DNA of 64,000 nt, taken from Segatella copri DSM 18205. GTDB lineage: Bacteria > Bacteroidota > Bacteroidia > Bacteroidales > Bacteroidaceae. Below, piece by piece: positions 2,968-63,599 of the stretch. The stretch covers positions 2,365,501 through 2,429,500 of the forward strand of contig NZ_CP102288.1 in NCBI RefSeq assembly GCF_025151535.1, given 5' to 3'. A program made the translations under genes and the position numbers. Below the pieces are notes generated by a model. It saw only the letters and a list, made by a program, of their open reading frames with translations. It did no database searches and was not told where the DNA came from. How positions within the stretch are numbered: the first letter of the stretch is position 1; each line of letters starts with the position of its first letter.

Positions 2968-5082
<2,115 letters not shown>

Positions 5083-6896: not shown

Positions 6897-9872
6897 TTAG
6901 AAATTCACTGAGAGCGACAGAGTATAAGTACGGCTCAGAGGATAGATGTTCTTGTCGTCAACACCCAGATTGCCACCACTGATGGTTGCAGAGTTGATCA
7001 TTGGAGTCAGGCCCTTGTAACCAGTGAGGGTACAGATATTGTTGACTGACAATGCAAGGTGAATGTTGTTGATGAACTTCCACTTGAGCATATCCTTGGT
7101 GAAGGTGTAGCCCAAAGAAGCGTACTCGAAGTTCATATAGTCACCCTTTTCCAGCCAGTAGTCAGAAATCTGAACATCATGGATACCCTTGCCATTATTG
7201 AGATGCTGTGCACCGCTCAGGATATTATAGGTTGGGAAATTACTCATATTGTTCAAGGTCATGGATGTGGCATTGTAAATCTTATGACCGAAAGCACCGT
7301 TAAACTGCATAGTCAGATCCCAGTTCTTGTACTTGAAGCTCATATCCCAGCCGAGGAAGTACTTAGGAATTGCCTGTCCGCAAACCTTGCGGTCGCCACT
7401 GTCACCCGTATCAATGGTACCATTATCATCAAGGTCTTCGATGATATACTGTCCATTCTCATCAATACCTGTGCAGTGAGGCAGATAGAATACACCTACA
7501 GGCTGTCCCTCAATGAGATAGGTTACGCCATTATTATGTGTCAGACCAGCCGCACCTACGGTGGCAACAGAGATATGCTCGCTCGTTGTCATAGGCTGTC
7601 CCTTGTAGGTACCGCTCAACTTCTTCAGCTTGTTCTTCTGATAAGAGAAATTCAGACCGGAATTGAAGGTAAAGTCCTTTGTCTTGATGATGTCACCTCG
7701 AACAGCCAATTCAAATCCCATATTAGTCATGGTACCCATATTGGCCAGCAGACGGTCGTAAGTGAAAGGAGGTACCGGCACGGTATAGGTATAAAGCATA
7801 TCTGATGTTTCAGAAGTGTACCAGTCGAAGGTTACATTGAGACGCTGCTTGAACATCGACAGGTCAAAACCGACATCAAATGTCGTCTTTACCTCCCACT
7901 TCAGATCAGGGTTGCTGTTGGAGGTAACCGCAAAAGTAGTACTTGTTGCGCCGTTGACGGTAGTTACACCATTAGGCTCCATCAGGGCGAGAGAAGTATA
8001 AGGATCGATGGCATCCTGATTACCGGTCACACCATATCCTGCACGAATCTTGAAATTGTCTATCTGCTTGATTTTCTTCATCCAAGGCTCATTGCTGATT
8101 ACCCATGCCAAGGAAGCAGAAGGGAACCAGCCCCACTTCTGACCATTACCCAACTTAGAAGAACCATCGGTACGAACATTGACGGTAGCGATGTATTTGT
8201 CAGCCAGCATATAGTTGACACGAGCCATATAAGAGCTCAGGGTATATTCGGTGTAGTTAGACTGCAGATTACCCCAGCTCACATTGGCAGCAGCCTTCAT
8301 GTTATTGAATTTGAAGTAGTTGGTATCAAATCCATGTGCCTCCTGTGAGTTCCAGTCGTAGGTGTACTTCTGTCCCTCCATCAGAGCCAAGGCATCAATG
8401 TGATGCTTGCCGAAATCCTTGGAGAAATTCACCATGACGTTGCCCATATAGTCCTTGCGGTTGGTATTGGCAATATAAGCCCATCCGTTACCGTTCAGCT
8501 TACCCATCTGGATATTGTTAGGAATATAGAACTTATTGTCACGGTTCCAATAATTGTATGAACCAAAGGCACTTACAGTGAGTCCGTCGATGATGTTGAC
8601 CGTTGCCTTGCCATGAACATTGACAGAGGCATCCTTGTAGAAGTCATCAATATCGAGCAATCCCAGTGGATTCCAGACTTCATTGGCAAGCAGATCCTCA
8701 TCCCATTCGCCCTTGTCGTTTCTTACATTAGGATAAGTAGGGTTATAGGCTGTAGCAGAATAGAACATCTTGTGCATATCATACTGGATATTGCTATTGC
8801 GCTGAGAACCGAATATGCCCAGTTCCAGCTTCAGATGTTTGTCGAAGAGATACTGGGTTCCATCCAGCTTTGCTGTAAAATTCTTCATATCAGAATTCTT
8901 CAAGGCACCCTGACGGAGAACGAATCCCAGAGAAGCACGAAGACTGGAAGTGTCTGTACCAGAAGAGAAAGAGATGTTATGATTCTGTGTGAGACCCACA
9001 TTGCGCTCAATCTCCTCGAGGAAATTGGTATCGCCACCCATATCGGTATAGGTCAGACCCAAAGACTTGGCAGTTTCACGATATTCTGAAGCCGACATCA
9101 GATCCAGATTCTTATAGACTGTATTGACACCAAACTGGCCATTGTAGCTCAGGCTGGAATAGCCCAACTTGCCCTTGGCTGTGGTAACAACGATGACACC
9201 GGAAGCACCACGTGAACCATACTGGGCAGTCTCAGAAGCATCTTTCAGGATGGTGAGACTCTCAATATCGCCAGGAGCCAGAGAATTGAACATTGTCATA
9301 TCAGCAAAGACGCCATCGATGATAACCAATGGGTCGTTACCACCTGAAAGAGAAGAGGTTCCACGAACTCGAATGCTTGGCGAACTGGTAGGGTCGCCGC
9401 CAGCCTGAGAAATGATAACACCCGCAACCTTACCCTTCAAGGCCTCGGCAGGACTGGTTACCACACCCTTGTTCATATCTTCTTTCTTGATGCGGTCGAC
9501 AGCACCCGACACCGTGCGCTTGCTGCCCACAGCATAACCAACGACAACCACCTCATCGAGCACCTCGTCGTTTTCTTTCAGCGAAACATTGATAACATGA
9601 TTTCCCTTTACAGGAATTTCCTGGGTACGGTAGCCCAGATAAGAGAATACCAGGACAGAACCATCCTTAACATTGTCAAGCTTGTAGTTACCATCCAAGT
9701 CGGACACTGCACCATTCTTGGTATCTTTCACCAGAATGCTGGCACCAATGACAGGTTCACCTGTGGCATCTACCACCTGACCCTTAATGGTTGTCTGACC
9801 AAGAGCATTAAAAGTAATAAAGCATCCTGCTAACAGCAGACCTACTTTCTTTGAAAGGTTGTTTTTATCCAT
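6897..9872 (-). CDS. susC: SusC/RagA-like TonB-dependent outer-membrane transporter
   Basis: A 991-residue TonB-linked porin that imports oligosaccharides together with SusD. Order of parts: signal peptide (1-26, GCFITFNALGQ), a carboxypeptidase-regulatory-like beta-sandwich (TIKGQVVDATGEPVIGAS..., about 28-103), the SusC motif LDEVVVVGY, a plug domain (TSPAEALKGKVAGV, SIRVRGTSSLSGGNDPLVII, TILKDASETAQYGSRGASGVI) and a 22-strand barrel ending in LSLSVNF with terminal Phe. Length is usual for the family. It is the first gene of a four-gene operon (susC, susD, GH97, GH13). A -7 box is 40 bp upstream, and the divergent gene encodes the likely regulator. Confidence 0.95.
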   Translation of the reverse strand: MDKNNLSKKVGLLLAGCFITFNALGQTTIKGQVVDATGEPVIGASILVKDTKNGAVSDLDGNYKLDNVKDGSVLVFSYLGYRTQEIPVKGNHVINVSLKENDEVLDEVVVVGYAVGSKRTVSGAVDRIKKEDMNKGVVTSPAEALKGKVAGVIISQAGGDPTSSPSIRVRGTSSLSGGNDPLVIIDGVFADMTMFNSLAPGDIESLTILKDASETAQYGSRGASGVIVVTTAKGKLGYSSLSYNGQFGVNTVYKNLDLMSASEYRETAKSLGLTYTDMGGDTNFLEEIERNVGLTQNHNISFSSGTDTSSLRASLGFVLRQGALKNSDMKNFTAKLDGTQYLFDKHLKLELGIFGSQRNSNIQYDMHKMFYSATAYNPTYPNVRNDKGEWDEDLLANEVWNPLGLLDIDDFYKDASVNVHGKATVNIIDGLTVSAFGSYNYWNRDNKFYIPNNIQMGKLNGNGWAYIANTNRKDYMGNVMVNFSKDFGKHHIDALALMEGQKYTYDWNSQEAHGFDTNYFKFNNMKAAANVSWGNLQSNYTEYTLSSYMARVNYMLADKYIATVNVRTDGSSKLGNGQKWGWFPSASLAWVISNEPWMKKIKQIDNFKIRAGYGVTGNQDAIDPYTSLALMEPNGVTTVNGATSTTFAVTSNSNPDLKWEVKTTFDVGFDLSMFKQRLNVTFDWYTSETSDMLYTYTVPVPPFTYDRLLANMGTMTNMGFELAVRGDIIKTKDFTFNSGLNFSYQKNKLKKLSGTYKGQPMTTSEHISVATVGAAGLTHNNGVTYLIEGQPVGVFYLPHCTGIDENGQYIIEDLDDNGTIDTGDSGDRKVCGQAIPKYFLGWDMSFKYKNWDLTMQFNGAFGHKIYNATSMTLNNMSNFPTYNILSGAQHLNNGKGIHDVQISDYWLEKGDYMNFEYASLGYTFTKDMLKWKFINNIHLALSVNNICTLTGYKGLTPMINSATISGGNLGVDDKNIYPLSRTYTLSLSVNF

Positions 9873-25153: not shown

Positions 25154-25966
25154 ATGTTAGGAGCAATGATAGGAGATATTGCTGGCTCAAAATATGAGTT
25201 CAACAATACGTTTGATTATGATTTCGAGATGTTCGGCGAAGGATGCGACTTCACCGATGATACCATCTGTACGGTAGCGATAGCTGATGCAATACTGAAC
25301 GGGCGAAGCTATCAGGAAAGCCTGCTGGATTGGTGCCGCCGCTATCCTTCTCCAAAAGGAGCGTATGGCGGAAGATTTGCGGGGTGGATTCGTTCTCTTG
25401 ATCCACAGCCATATAATAGTTTTGGCAATGGTTCGGCAATGCGAGTATCACCGGTAGCTTGGCTATTCGATGACCTGTCGCAGGTTTTGGAAGAGGCAGA
25501 GAAAACGGCTCTTCCTACTCATAACCATCCCGAAGGAATCAAGGGAGCCAAAGCCGTGGCTCATGCCATCTGGCATTTCCGCAAGAGCAGATTCTCAGAA
25601 GAATCTAATGAGTGTAAAGATAAGAATTCTAAAGAATCTGATGATAAGGCAATGAAAGCCTTCAAGGATATCGCCCGCAGCTATTACGAGGATTTCGATA
25701 CGCGAGATTATCCGAAAGGCAAATTCGATGAAACCTGCATGGATGCCGTGCCATTATCCTTCTATCTCCTCTCGCAAGCCTCATCCTTCGAAGATGCTAT
25801 CCGCTTAGCCATATCTCATGGCGGCGATAGCGATACCATCGGAGCCATCGTTGGCAGTATCGCCGAAGCACGATTCGGTATTCCACAAGATATGAAAGAG
25901 AAGGCAATCTCTTATCTTCCGGATGATATGAGAGAAATATCGGCTAGAATAAAGTGTAGCAACTAG
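25154..25966 (+). CDS. ADP-ribosylglycohydrolase (DraG/ARH family)
   Basis: A 270-residue enzyme that removes ADP-ribose from modified proteins or nucleic acids. The start MLGAMIGDIAGSKYEF and DFTDDTICTVAIADAIL carry the first metal-binding acidic group (TDDT), and SHGGDSDTIGAIVGSIAEA near the C-terminus the second (DSDT). These two sites hold the dinuclear metal centre of the DraG fold. GAYGGRFAGWI and NGSAMRVSPVA are also family blocks. A 20-residue polar insert (ESNECKDKNSKESDDK) is strain-like. It is last in the 22778-25966 run; the first 22-bp repeat array begins inside its stop codon. Confidence 0.9.
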   Translation: MLGAMIGDIAGSKYEFNNTFDYDFEMFGEGCDFTDDTICTVAIADAILNGRSYQESLLDWCRRYPSPKGAYGGRFAGWIRSLDPQPYNSFGNGSAMRVSPVAWLFDDLSQVLEEAEKTALPTHNHPEGIKGAKAVAHAIWHFRKSRFSEESNECKDKNSKESDDKAMKAFKDIARSYYEDFDTRDYPKGKFDETCMDAVPLSFYLLSQASSFEDAIRLAISHGGDSDTIGAIVGSIAEARFGIPQDMKEKAISYLPDDMREISARIKCSN

Positions 25967-26028
25967 GCTCAGCAAAGCTGCTGACTGCAGTCAGCAGACC
26001 TGCCGACTAGGCTCGGCAGACCTGCTGA
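25963..26028. repeat. 22-bp array 1 (three units)
   Basis: Three units of exactly 22 bp (25963, 25985, 26007), each containing an imperfect palindrome such as TCAGCA-aagc-TGCTGA or GTCAGCAGAC-CTGCCGAC. A fourth, degraded unit follows (GCCTAGTGGC...). The array overlaps the TAG stop codon of the ADP-ribosylglycohydrolase gene. The stretch 26029-26108 shows nothing else. Confidence 0.75.
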
Positions 26029-26108
26029 GCCTAGTGGCAACTTCTGAGAAGGTATCTTCTGGAACCCAAGGAGTAATGTCTTTCAACTCACGAAGACGCT
26101 TGCATCAA

Positions 26109-26196
26109 CCTATAGAGTTGACTCCTTTATCCCATCGAGCCGACTCCGTCATCCAGTAGAACCAACTCATTCTGCTAAATCAACCCTATCTACAAC
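26109..26196. repeat. 22-bp array 2 (four units)
   Basis: Units at 26109, 26131, 26153 and 26175, each 22 bp, sharing CC at the start and a core: TATAGAGTTGACTC, CATCGAGCCGACTC, AGTAGAACCAACTC, then a weak fourth. GAGT-tg-ACTC is a dyad. Sequence differs completely from array 1 but the period is identical. Confidence 0.65.
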
Positions 26197-26289
26197 CTTC
26201 TCCAGACAGTTAATCATTATGATACTGCTTATCAGAAATCGTGGTCACAATAGCACTCAGCTTCTGCATTTTCTCCTCATTTATTTCCT

Positions 26290-27022
26290 GCACATAAAAG
26301 TTTTTTGTGAGAAAAGTATCAAAGTATCATTATTTAGAGAAAACAACATTCTAAACATCTGATACATTGCGACATACAAAAATGAGACTTTCGAAATATT
26401 TTACAGAAAAGTATCATCGAAGTATCATAAAATTGCAAGAAGTATCATAAATTTCGGCTTTGAGGTAAATTAAAAGGCTAAAAAGAAATATCTACTATTC
26501 CAGTTTTATAAAATTAATAGCGTCTACTTTTTCAGAATGTAAAGAATGTCAACACAAACTAGGAATAAGAGGAAAGATTGACAAGTTGGATTAGGAATAA
26601 AAGCACATAAAGTGGTCTGTAAGAGACCATTAAGCGGTCTGTAAGAGACCATCAAGTGGGCACTTAGGGACCAAGTGTCGGGCATTGAGAGAACAAGTAA
26701 CGGGCACTCATTGCCCATATAGTAGGCATCGAGTGCCCAAAGTATCGGACGATTTTTGGGCACTTCTCGCAAGTCGGCGGCTTCGATATTATTCATGATG
26801 CTTTATGACGATTTTGTGATGGTTTTATGATGGTTTGGTGATACTTCTATGGCAATTTCATGATACTTCTATCACATTCATGATACTTCGATGATACTTT
26901 TTGTAAAGTAATCCGAAAAGTATCATTCTTGTATATTATTATATATCAGTTATTTATACCATTACTTAACCCAAAAGATGATACTTTGAGACTTTTTTTC
27001 ATAAAAAACTTTTCTCGTGTGC
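26290..27022. repeat. Inverted-repeat element B built from AGTATCAT units
   Basis: Outer imperfect inverted arms (26290-26330, 26978-27022) start GCACA and contain AAAAGT..TTTTTT and the octamer AGTATCAT. Exact octamers lie at 26323, 26410, 26421, 26441 and 26919 on the plus strand and at 26860, 26880, 26891 and 26978 on the minus strand. The middle holds 22-bp array 3. No plausible gene is inside. Confidence 0.7.
26610..26763. repeat. 22-bp array 3 (seven units)
   Basis: Seven units of exactly 22 bp (26610, 26632, 26654, 26676, 26698, 26720, 26742). The central 15 bp form small hairpins whose stems change sequence: GGTCT-gtaag-AGACC (units 1 and 2), GGGCA-ctcat-TGCCC (unit 5), AGGCA-tcgag-TGCCC (unit 6); units 3, 4 and 7 are partly decayed. 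Pairing is kept while the bases differ. Confidence 0.8.
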
Positions 27023-27086
27023 GTATAAACTCGACGCTAAATCTAAAAAGAATCTGATACAATACCTTATAGATACTCCCAAAATC

Positions 27087-27174
27087 ACGTCCCGACGTAG
27101 ACTTTACTACATGGCGACGTAATCTTTCCTACGTCCCGACGCAGAGATTCCTACATCGCCATGTAATTTCAAGG
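27087..27174. repeat. 22-bp array 4 (four units)
   Basis: Units at 27087, 27109, 27131 and 27153, exactly 22 bp. The 12-bp cores are dyads: ACGTCCCGACGT, ACATGGCGACGT, ACGTCCCGACGC and ACATCGCCATGT, each followed by a T-rich spacer such as AATCTTTCCT. The array ends 64 bp before the -33 box of the kinase gene. Confidence 0.75.
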
Positions 27175-27238
27175 ACAACGGGAAATGAAAGATGTATTAA
27201 AACAATTTGCTGGAAAATACGAAATAAAGCCCAAATAA

Positions 27239-41979: not shown

Positions 41980-42550
41980 AAAATATCAATATCTTGATTA
42001 TCAGAAGATTAACCCACTTGATGTTGTAAAACACAACGTATGGGTACCCCGAAGTATTCACTCTTACCATAAAATAGTTAGCAATCTGATTATCAAATGG
42101 TTAACCTATTTGACGCCCTATTTCAGGGCGTCAAACTTTTTATACGATTTCTCTCGCTCCTCATCCATCACCAAGTTCGCAGAAACAGGGATACACAAAC
42201 ATCAATATTTTGATTATCAAATGACTACCCATACATCGCGAAACGCGATGCATGGGTACGTGAAGCATTTACTCTTTCCCAGAAAACAATCAACACGCTG
42301 ATTATCGGTTAGTTAACCCACATGAAGCCCTAAAATAGGGCACATGGGTACCTGGAGCATTTACTCTTTCCCAGAAAACAACCAACACCCTGATTATCGG
42401 TTAGTTAACCCACATAACACCTTAAAACAAGGGGCATGGGTACCCCGAAGCGTTTACTCTTCCGAAAAATAATCAACACCCCAATTATCGGACGTTTTAC
42501 CCATACGCCCTAAAACAGGGCGCATGGGTATCAGCAGCATTTACTCCTAA
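41980..42550. repeat. Array of ~90-bp units with variable hairpins (six units)
   Basis: GATTATC-like landmarks at 41996, 42088, 42212, 42300, 42392 and 42483 mark units of 88-92 bp (one of 124 bp). Each unit runs CAACACnCTGATTATC, TTAACCCA, a hairpin, ATGGGTAC, GCATTTACTCTT. Hairpin stems differ but pair: CATCGCG/CGCGATG, GCCCTA/TAGGGC, CGCCCT/AGGGCG, GTTGT/ACAAC and TTGACGCCCT/AGGGCGTCAA. No ORF runs through the array. Confidence 0.8.
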
Positions 42551-63517: not shown

Positions 63518-63599
63518 GCGCTTGTGGCGAAATTGGTAGACGCGCTAGACTTAGGATCTAGTGGTTCAGGCCGTGTAGGTTCGAGTCCTATCAGGCGCA
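63518..63599 (+). tRNA. tRNA-Leu (anticodon TAG)
   Basis: The acceptor stem GCGCTTG pairs with CAGGCGC (one G-T pair), with discriminator A. The D arm region GGCGAAATTGGTAGACGC, anticodon stem-loop CTAGACTTAGGATCTAG with anticodon TAG, a long variable arm, and GGTTCGAGTCC T arm are present. The 3' CCA is not encoded. Confidence 0.96.

Follow-up and report, generated by a model that had tools for sequence, protein, structure and literature searches.

The window analysed here, a 64,000-nucleotide stretch of Segatella copri DSM 18205, corresponds to positions 2365501-2429500 of contig C1 of G000, which we refer to as the own genome (a 3.33-Mb single contig). Our focus is the region between two forward-strand genes, an ADP-ribosylglycohydrolase family gene (PF03747, 25154-25966) and a Kinase-PolyVal family gene (PF18762, 27292-28107), where a first-pass annotation of the sequence had noted four mutually unrelated arrays sharing one 22-bp period. 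TRF and unit print-outs locate 22-bp arrays where that annotation had placed them. The excess of periodicity over shuffled controls that it called for is clear: in the region 25955-27180 lag 22 is the strongest period, covering 288 bases, followed by lag 44 (159 bases) and lag 11 (87 bases), as compared with a maximum of 56 bases at any lag from 15 to 30 in 200 first-order shuffles. The CRISPR explanation is ruled out by array structure, in agreement with the annotation, since the 22-bp units drift in sequence and no unique spacers lie between them. Across the whole window the only Rfam match above the gathering score is a tRNA at 63518-63599; about three copies of a 92-bp tandem repeat are present at 42250-42546.

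The count of four separate arrays has to be revised. Array 1 (25962-26035, forward strand), in the first unit of which the stop codon of the ADP-ribosylglycohydrolase gene falls, consists of three 22-bp units and a half unit that closes it, has the inverted repeat ACTAGGCTC..GAGCCTAGT at its end and folds far below shuffles on both strands (z of -6.6 and -7.3). Written in rows of 22, it continues in the same register into weaker 22-bp units at 26036-26203 (forward strand), which include the former array 2. Arrays 1 and 2 are one array of 11 units (25962-26203), with a palindromic core and a tail, which we term family A; neighbouring units are identical at 15, 16, 7, 6, 12, 9, 12, 15, 11 and 9 of 22 positions, the units in between being weakly alike. 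Dyad covariation in the family-A tail was not found among 76 tail units from 11 loci. Array 3 (26614-26767, forward strand) has seven 22-bp units and lies within an inverted-repeat element at 26289-27023. Each unit had been credited with a small dyad, and array 3 with a stem that switches from GGTCT/AGACC to GGGCA/TGCCC with pairing kept; inspected by eye, this holds for units 1, 2, 5 and 6 of array 3 (unit 6 with four of five pairs) and fails in units 3, 4 and 7, which do not pair. Repeats resembling TGATACTT, spaced by 11 or 22 bp, occupy 26792-26899 on the reverse strand, at the inner part of the array-3 element's right inverted-repeat arm and immediately interior to it. Array 4 (family B; 27087-27174, forward strand) comprises four ACGTCnnGACGT-type units at 22-bp spacing, and its left flank (27003-27086, forward strand) is common to another array-4 copy at G000 1394821-1395001, with flank and array together 88% identical over 181 bp.

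Nor are the four arrays isolated oddities. The array region has 43 matches in the own genome, a number that includes itself and reversed matches. By eye, the array-1 core recurs at ten other own-genome loci, in general with a 22-bp tail after it, and at five of them (L031, L032, L033, L035 and L041) it has a long left arm with a 23-bp period. The 23-bp left-arm units of L031, L032, L035 and L041 (that of L033 being shorter) carry the dyad TAGTTGTACGACTA, and the right arm of the same arrays keeps to 22 bp. Relatives of array 3 occur at three further places in the own genome (L030, L043 and L047), and those of array 4 at seven or more, mostly of three or four units. Array 4 aligns over 90 bp at 68% with the array upstream of the vapE gene L070 (similarity 0.71) and is a solitary relative of it. 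A further family, C, has 13 main matches in the own genome, each read by eye as four strong dyad units and about two to five tail units; most copies lie inside ends like GAGGGTGTGTCATAA, and at least two (L168 and L169) do not. Arrays 1 and 2 follow the same core-and-tail plan, with no partner gene found for them, and the window holds pieces of about three array families. In the near relative G042 the same locus, recognised by flanks of 93-96% identity, contains other DNA and no lag-22 segment. Record MT838260.1 (L198), filed as a bacteriophage, carries the array-1 core among ORFs that by eye look chromosomal (carbonic anhydrase-like and others).

The element around array 3 is a non-autonomous one: at 26289-27023 two long imperfect inverted-repeat arms enclose the array, and both element genes are missing. 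Its ends are GCACA...AAAAGTTTTTT-like, the exact end bases being our reading. Its relative is an element with the order DUF6078-array-vapE at G000 2.342-2.345 Mb. The window element aligns in order with the left end (1292-1491), the array (2080-2212) and the right end (4188-4323) of that element as contained in L043, skipping both ORFs, and array 3 matches the array between DUF6078 and vapE in L043/L069. The window element is an internally deleted copy of a DUF6078-array-vapE element, with two features of a MITE: inverted-repeat ends common to a gene-bearing relative, and loss of the internal genes. L030 is a similar derivative that has lost both genes; L047, a fragment, retains one end as well as the array. 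Since the window element, L030 and L047 all keep the array, we suggest that the array is needed in cis. Inspection by eye of a single copy, L030, revealed no target-site duplication. No element carrying a family-A array (arrays 1 and 2) or a family-C array was found, and we therefore connect these two families to the element through their architecture.

We then placed the 22-bp period in a wider setting using a scan that scores segments by match and mismatch, masks ORFs by length and uses first-order shuffles as a control; it counts segments, so that one array may count twice. In the intergenic DNA of 400 kb of the own genome plus the window, lag 22 yields 26 segments covering 1440 bases, and the shuffles yield none at this lag. 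Across the intergenic parts of 20 evenly spaced 20-kb stretches of the same genome it yields 21 segments and 1274 bases, with 135 bases at lag 21 and 218 at lag 23. Four other Prevotella and Segatella genomes, sampled at 100 kb each, contain 6, 2, 4 and 14 lag-22 segments; lag 22 is the leading period in three of them, and in G024 it ties (117 bases) with lag 44 (119 bases). In each of the five genus genomes sampled, lag 22 is thus the top intergenic period, alone or in a tie. No lag-22 segment was found in any of five genomes from other families (80 kb each, of which 5-10 kb is intergenic). Among 11 genomes of sister genera, sampled at 20-60 kb each, the period is present in four (G283, G282, G341 and G291) and absent from the stretches of G321, G375, G368, G344, G287, G290 and G322. 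The genome-wide search for low-identity 22-bp arrays that the first-pass annotation had proposed thus finds them, whereas its picture of phased palindromes throughout is not borne out: of 47 dispersed array segments, 15 reach p<0.05 as dyads, and the folding energy of 31 array stretches ranges from far below shuffles to no difference. Unit sequence varies from array to array, and the common factor of the arrays is the period and not palindromy. Fixed 22-bp spacing with changing sequence is real, beyond chance and widespread in Prevotella and Segatella. As for the origins suggested for such arrays by the annotation, we found no sign of template copying.

The arrays are linked to a specific gene. 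In the own genome a 22-bp array immediately precedes each of three close vapE relatives, and two of these arrays are members of known families, one of the array-3 and the other of the array-4 family; the own-genome vapE gene matches that of Segatella copri strain iA622 at 96%. Among more distant own-genome relatives, L073 and L075 lack an array, L074 has one past the 3' end of the gene and L076 has three units nearby. From named records, most of them Segatella, Prevotella and Prevotellaceae MAGs and a few with no closer label than Bacteroidales or uncultured, we collected 43 vapE loci and dropped five in which the match did not start at the gene start or the upstream DNA was short. A lag-22 array lies within 500 bp upstream of 34 of the remaining 38 genes, which encode helicases of BT4734_N-VapE-DUF3874 type, the array of L214 having two units only; any other lag between 14 and 40 occurs in at most two of the 38 upstream regions, the next commonest being lag 19, in two. 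Downstream (530 bp), lag 22 is found in 4 of 36 loci and lags 14, 15 and 30 in one each, a search that short or non-tandem iterons would escape. For comparison, 19 of 418 genes of at least 200 aa, taken from 40 genus stretches in genomes other than those of the 38 loci, have such an upstream array (Fisher p 3e-33). Since some loci are near-duplicates (L227/L228, L233/L243 and L212/L247), the effective number of vapE loci is below 38. Nine more distant vapE loci from phage and plasmid sets, scored at a threshold of 13 within 700 bp, have an array in six cases, including records of Bacteroides finegoldii and Parabacteroides distasonis. Of the vapE-upstream arrays, 26 of 35 are dyadic at p<0.05. 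In two loci filed as Bacteroides plasmids (L254 and L256), the BT4734/VapE gene has a gene for an HU-family DNA-binding protein nearby, on the other strand.

A second gene accompanies the array even more constantly. DUF6078 is encoded upstream of vapE in 29 of the 38 loci, and apart from it and ORFs antisense to it no gene family occurs beside vapE in more than three of the 38. In a pooled set of 50 loci (the 38, three from the own genome and the nine phage and plasmid loci), with DUF6078 detected by profile, 33 of the 34 loci with DUF6078 upstream have the array between the two genes, compared with an upstream array in 9 of the 16 loci without it (p 7e-4). In a further draw of genus genomes, DUF6078 was found in 33 of 60 (74 matches). 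We examined 30 of these matches, a sample largely separate from the vapE loci, with the exceptions that L282 is the own-genome element already used and the array of L285 is that of L207; the sets of 38, 30 and 50 loci overlap. A lag-22 array directly follows DUF6078 in 20 of the 30 loci, other lags being found at most twice and 10 loci having no array. Of the 30 loci, 8 have a detected vapE ORF, which is downstream on the same strand in four, one of which (L260) lacks an array; in several of the 14 loci printed for inspection by eye, the next gene looks chromosomal. Because arrays follow DUF6078 in 20 of 30 loci and vapE was detected in 8, DUF6078 is the more constant array partner. The predicted DUF6078 model is of high confidence (pLDDT 94) and has no significant match in the PDB. 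Four cysteines are invariant in 47 sequences. An open literature search found no paper mentioning DUF6078, and neither BT4734 nor DUF3874 occurs in the papers listed for them.

Of 26 loci drawn from the 38, 20 have inverted repeats (z>=7) on either side of the gene-array unit, with a right arm that begins no more than 60 bases from the vapE stop. Six of the 26 have no convincing inverted repeat. The inverted repeat of L234 is not significant, and at least two of the 34 upstream arrays, those of L232 and L237, are situated beyond the left arm. In the 20 loci the compact unit leaves little room for a transposase. The small DUF6078-array-vapE mobile element is apparently undescribed so far, and our open literature search found no Prevotella inverted-repeat element with iterons.

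Most arrays are not accompanied by vapE, as follows from finding one vapE homologue in 60 stretches (1.2 Mb) plus the window, against 57 lag-22 segments in the scanned stretches (47 from the five genus genomes and 10 from the sister genera). Such solitary arrays have a density of about one segment in every 7-50 kb of the Prevotella and Segatella chromosomes sampled, and they resemble the element arrays of their own genomes: likeness above 99.5% of the null is seen in 8 of 91 pairs within the own or sister genome as compared with 22 of 1031 pairs with other genomes (p 0.002; the G131 element was counted as that of its sister G145, and four window stretches were added by hand). The likeness is strong in G024 (0.91) and G145 (0.85-0.87). 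At 4604-5224 of L117 (G145; also in G131 and G325) there is a noncoding element of about 620 bp with a 22-bp array of about five units and two alternative right flanks. Just past an array, at 8160-8290 of the same locus, lie short TTATTGGGCTTATTAG-like repeats, lags 9 and 18 being prominent in G145. In two viral contigs (L204 and L205), a 22-bp GGTCT/AGACC array with about five units falls within the coding region of a putative phage replication initiator, so named by eye from neighbouring DnaC-like and, in L205, DnaB-like ORFs. The iterons of phage lambda lie in gene O.

In its predicted fold the helicase resembles an initiator helicase. The best Foldseek match of the VapE model (pLDDT 74) is 7pds, PriRep1 with double-stranded DNA (E 3.5e-13, TM 0.41-0.58), which is also matched by profile (E 1.3e-8); next come NrS-1 and AsfvPrimPol and then, at weaker E-values, SV40 large T, AAV Rep40 and E1. 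PriRep1 is the initiator helicase of a SaPI. Because relatives of two of the window's arrays adjoin the helicase genes of the element, the arrays look like element origin sites scattered in the chromosome, and we consider it reasonably probable that they are iteron-like binding-site arrays of a compact mobile element family together with its dispersed derivatives. The full element is about 3 kb long, with inverted-repeat ends carrying 11-bp spaced motifs, DUF6078, the 22-bp array and the BT4734_N-VapE-DUF3874 gene. An element protein (DUF6078, the N-terminal part of the helicase, or both) would bind the array units as an oligomer and, with units two helical turns apart, the bound proteins would line up on one face of the DNA; the helicase may then open the DNA at the array, which would start copying of the element. 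Each lineage keeps the 22-bp spacing and has its own site sequence, with site sequence and protein specificity presumably drifting together. Derivatives in which the array survives, whether internally deleted or solitary, have spread in the chromosome and would be copied in trans. As for the proposal in the first-pass annotation that the arrays are docking sites, protein binding is the best reading, and an architectural (nucleoid) protein is not needed for it; arrays of this kind belong next to the DUF6078 and VapE-type helicase genes of an inverted-repeat element.

Iteron plasmids and lambda-type origins have direct arrays of initiator sites about two helical turns apart, the R6K iterons being 22 bp. 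The present arrays differ in belonging to integrated elements with inverted-repeat ends and in being dispersed without an initiator gene. REP and BIME sequences are short intergenic palindromic repeats in many copies; here, in contrast, we see no shared sequence tag, strict 22-bp spacing and a link to DUF6078 and VapE genes. Gram-positive and Gram-negative PICIs replicate with a VapE-type protein and iterons, and their rep-ori drives plasmid replication; their origins lie immediately 3' of rep, where two sets of iterons surround an AT-rich region (PMC6092414). The likeness to the PICI/SaPI rep-ori is a VapE-type initiator helicase (7pds, PriRep1) beside an array of repeated sites, and the difference is that here one array lies 5' of the helicase gene. 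The element also differs from PICIs in its inverted-repeat ends, its DUF6078 partner and its many solitary arrays. By recurrence of ORF families in the 38 loci, it has no widely shared PICI-type integrase, and 20 of 26 loci close within 60 bases of the vapE stop. BrickBuilt of Porphyromonas gingivalis is likewise made of intergenic tandem repeats within an inverted-repeat element, is multicopy with variable unit number and has predicted stem-loops (PMC4596501). It is, however, one repeat family with a period of 23 nt and not 22, and its ends resemble IS5-family ISPg1/ISPg9 with GAGACCTTTGCA-like terminal repeats, unlike the GCACA..AAAAGTTTTTT-like ends of the window element; in the sections consulted, no link to a helicase or DUF6078 was found. 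The PICI rep-ori is the nearest machine and BrickBuilt the nearest repeat, each matched in part.

The same gene order would also suit operators, that is, sites for a regulator of the element's genes (most simply DUF6078) whose spacing serves cooperative repressor binding and which have no part in an origin. The array sits just 3' of DUF6078 and just 5' of vapE, DUF6078-array pairs often occur where no vapE was detected, and positions 101-131 of DUF6078 give a weak, non-significant profile match to a lambda repressor-like protein (E 1.4). We nevertheless regard this as unlikely: the window derivative and L030 have lost both genes and still keep the array, array segments far outnumber vapE genes in the sampled DNA and, on general knowledge, four to seven sites are long for an operator.

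It is rather improbable that the arrays and the 11-bp end repeats are instead sites of a transposition complex, perhaps supplied in trans. The array is internal and not at the ends, no widely shared gene other than DUF6078 accompanies it and the DUF6078-array pairs mostly lack a detected vapE, even though inverted repeats flank the gene-array unit, non-autonomous copies retain both ends and array, and the spread is dispersed and multicopy. A 5-kb query around the noncoding L117 element gives 72 matches in G131 and 76 in G325, mostly to the element, some of them pieces of one place counted apart. Tn7 TnsB and MuA bind 22-bp sites.

Ordinary minisatellites would inherit a 22-bp length from an old array and need no function. 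Recent whole-unit duplications are indeed visible (for example in L032 and L038), the number of family-C tail units varies, many arrays have no dyads and unit duplication passively keeps a period; neutral indels, however, should populate lags 21 and 23, which are thinly populated, unit sequences differ widely between loci, and the strong linkage to specific genes already strains this reading, which we hold to be very improbable. That the arrays organise the chromosome via an architectural protein, which is close to the reading of the first-pass annotation, is scarcely credible: the arrays are intergenic and many per genome in the genus, with a mild excess between convergent genes (array-bearing gaps numbering 12 against 68 such gaps when convergent and 7 against 86 when divergent), but site sequence differs between families within one genome, the arrays track element genes, and the near relative G042 has no lag-22 array at the window's locus.

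Extending the iteron-like reading, we tentatively raise the possibility of a new class of mobile element, bounded by inverted repeats and without an evident transposase or integrase, whose copying would depend on DUF6078, as a DNA-binding protein, and on a PriRep-like helicase, both acting at a 22-bp array that is fixed in geometry and free in sequence. Cloned iterons cause plasmid incompatibility, and the solitary arrays may act as decoys that titrate or block the initiators of relatives. With the iteron-like reading, the unexplained intergenic repeat landscape of a major gut genus becomes a testable system, and the uncharacterised DUF6078 and BT4734/VapE-DUF3874 families gain a likely DNA partner. 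An element without an evident transposase raises the question of its movement. Nature here offers many site sequences at one constant spacing, a ready data set for the evolution of initiator specificity, and these sequences could serve as replication or site-recognition tools for Bacteroidales.
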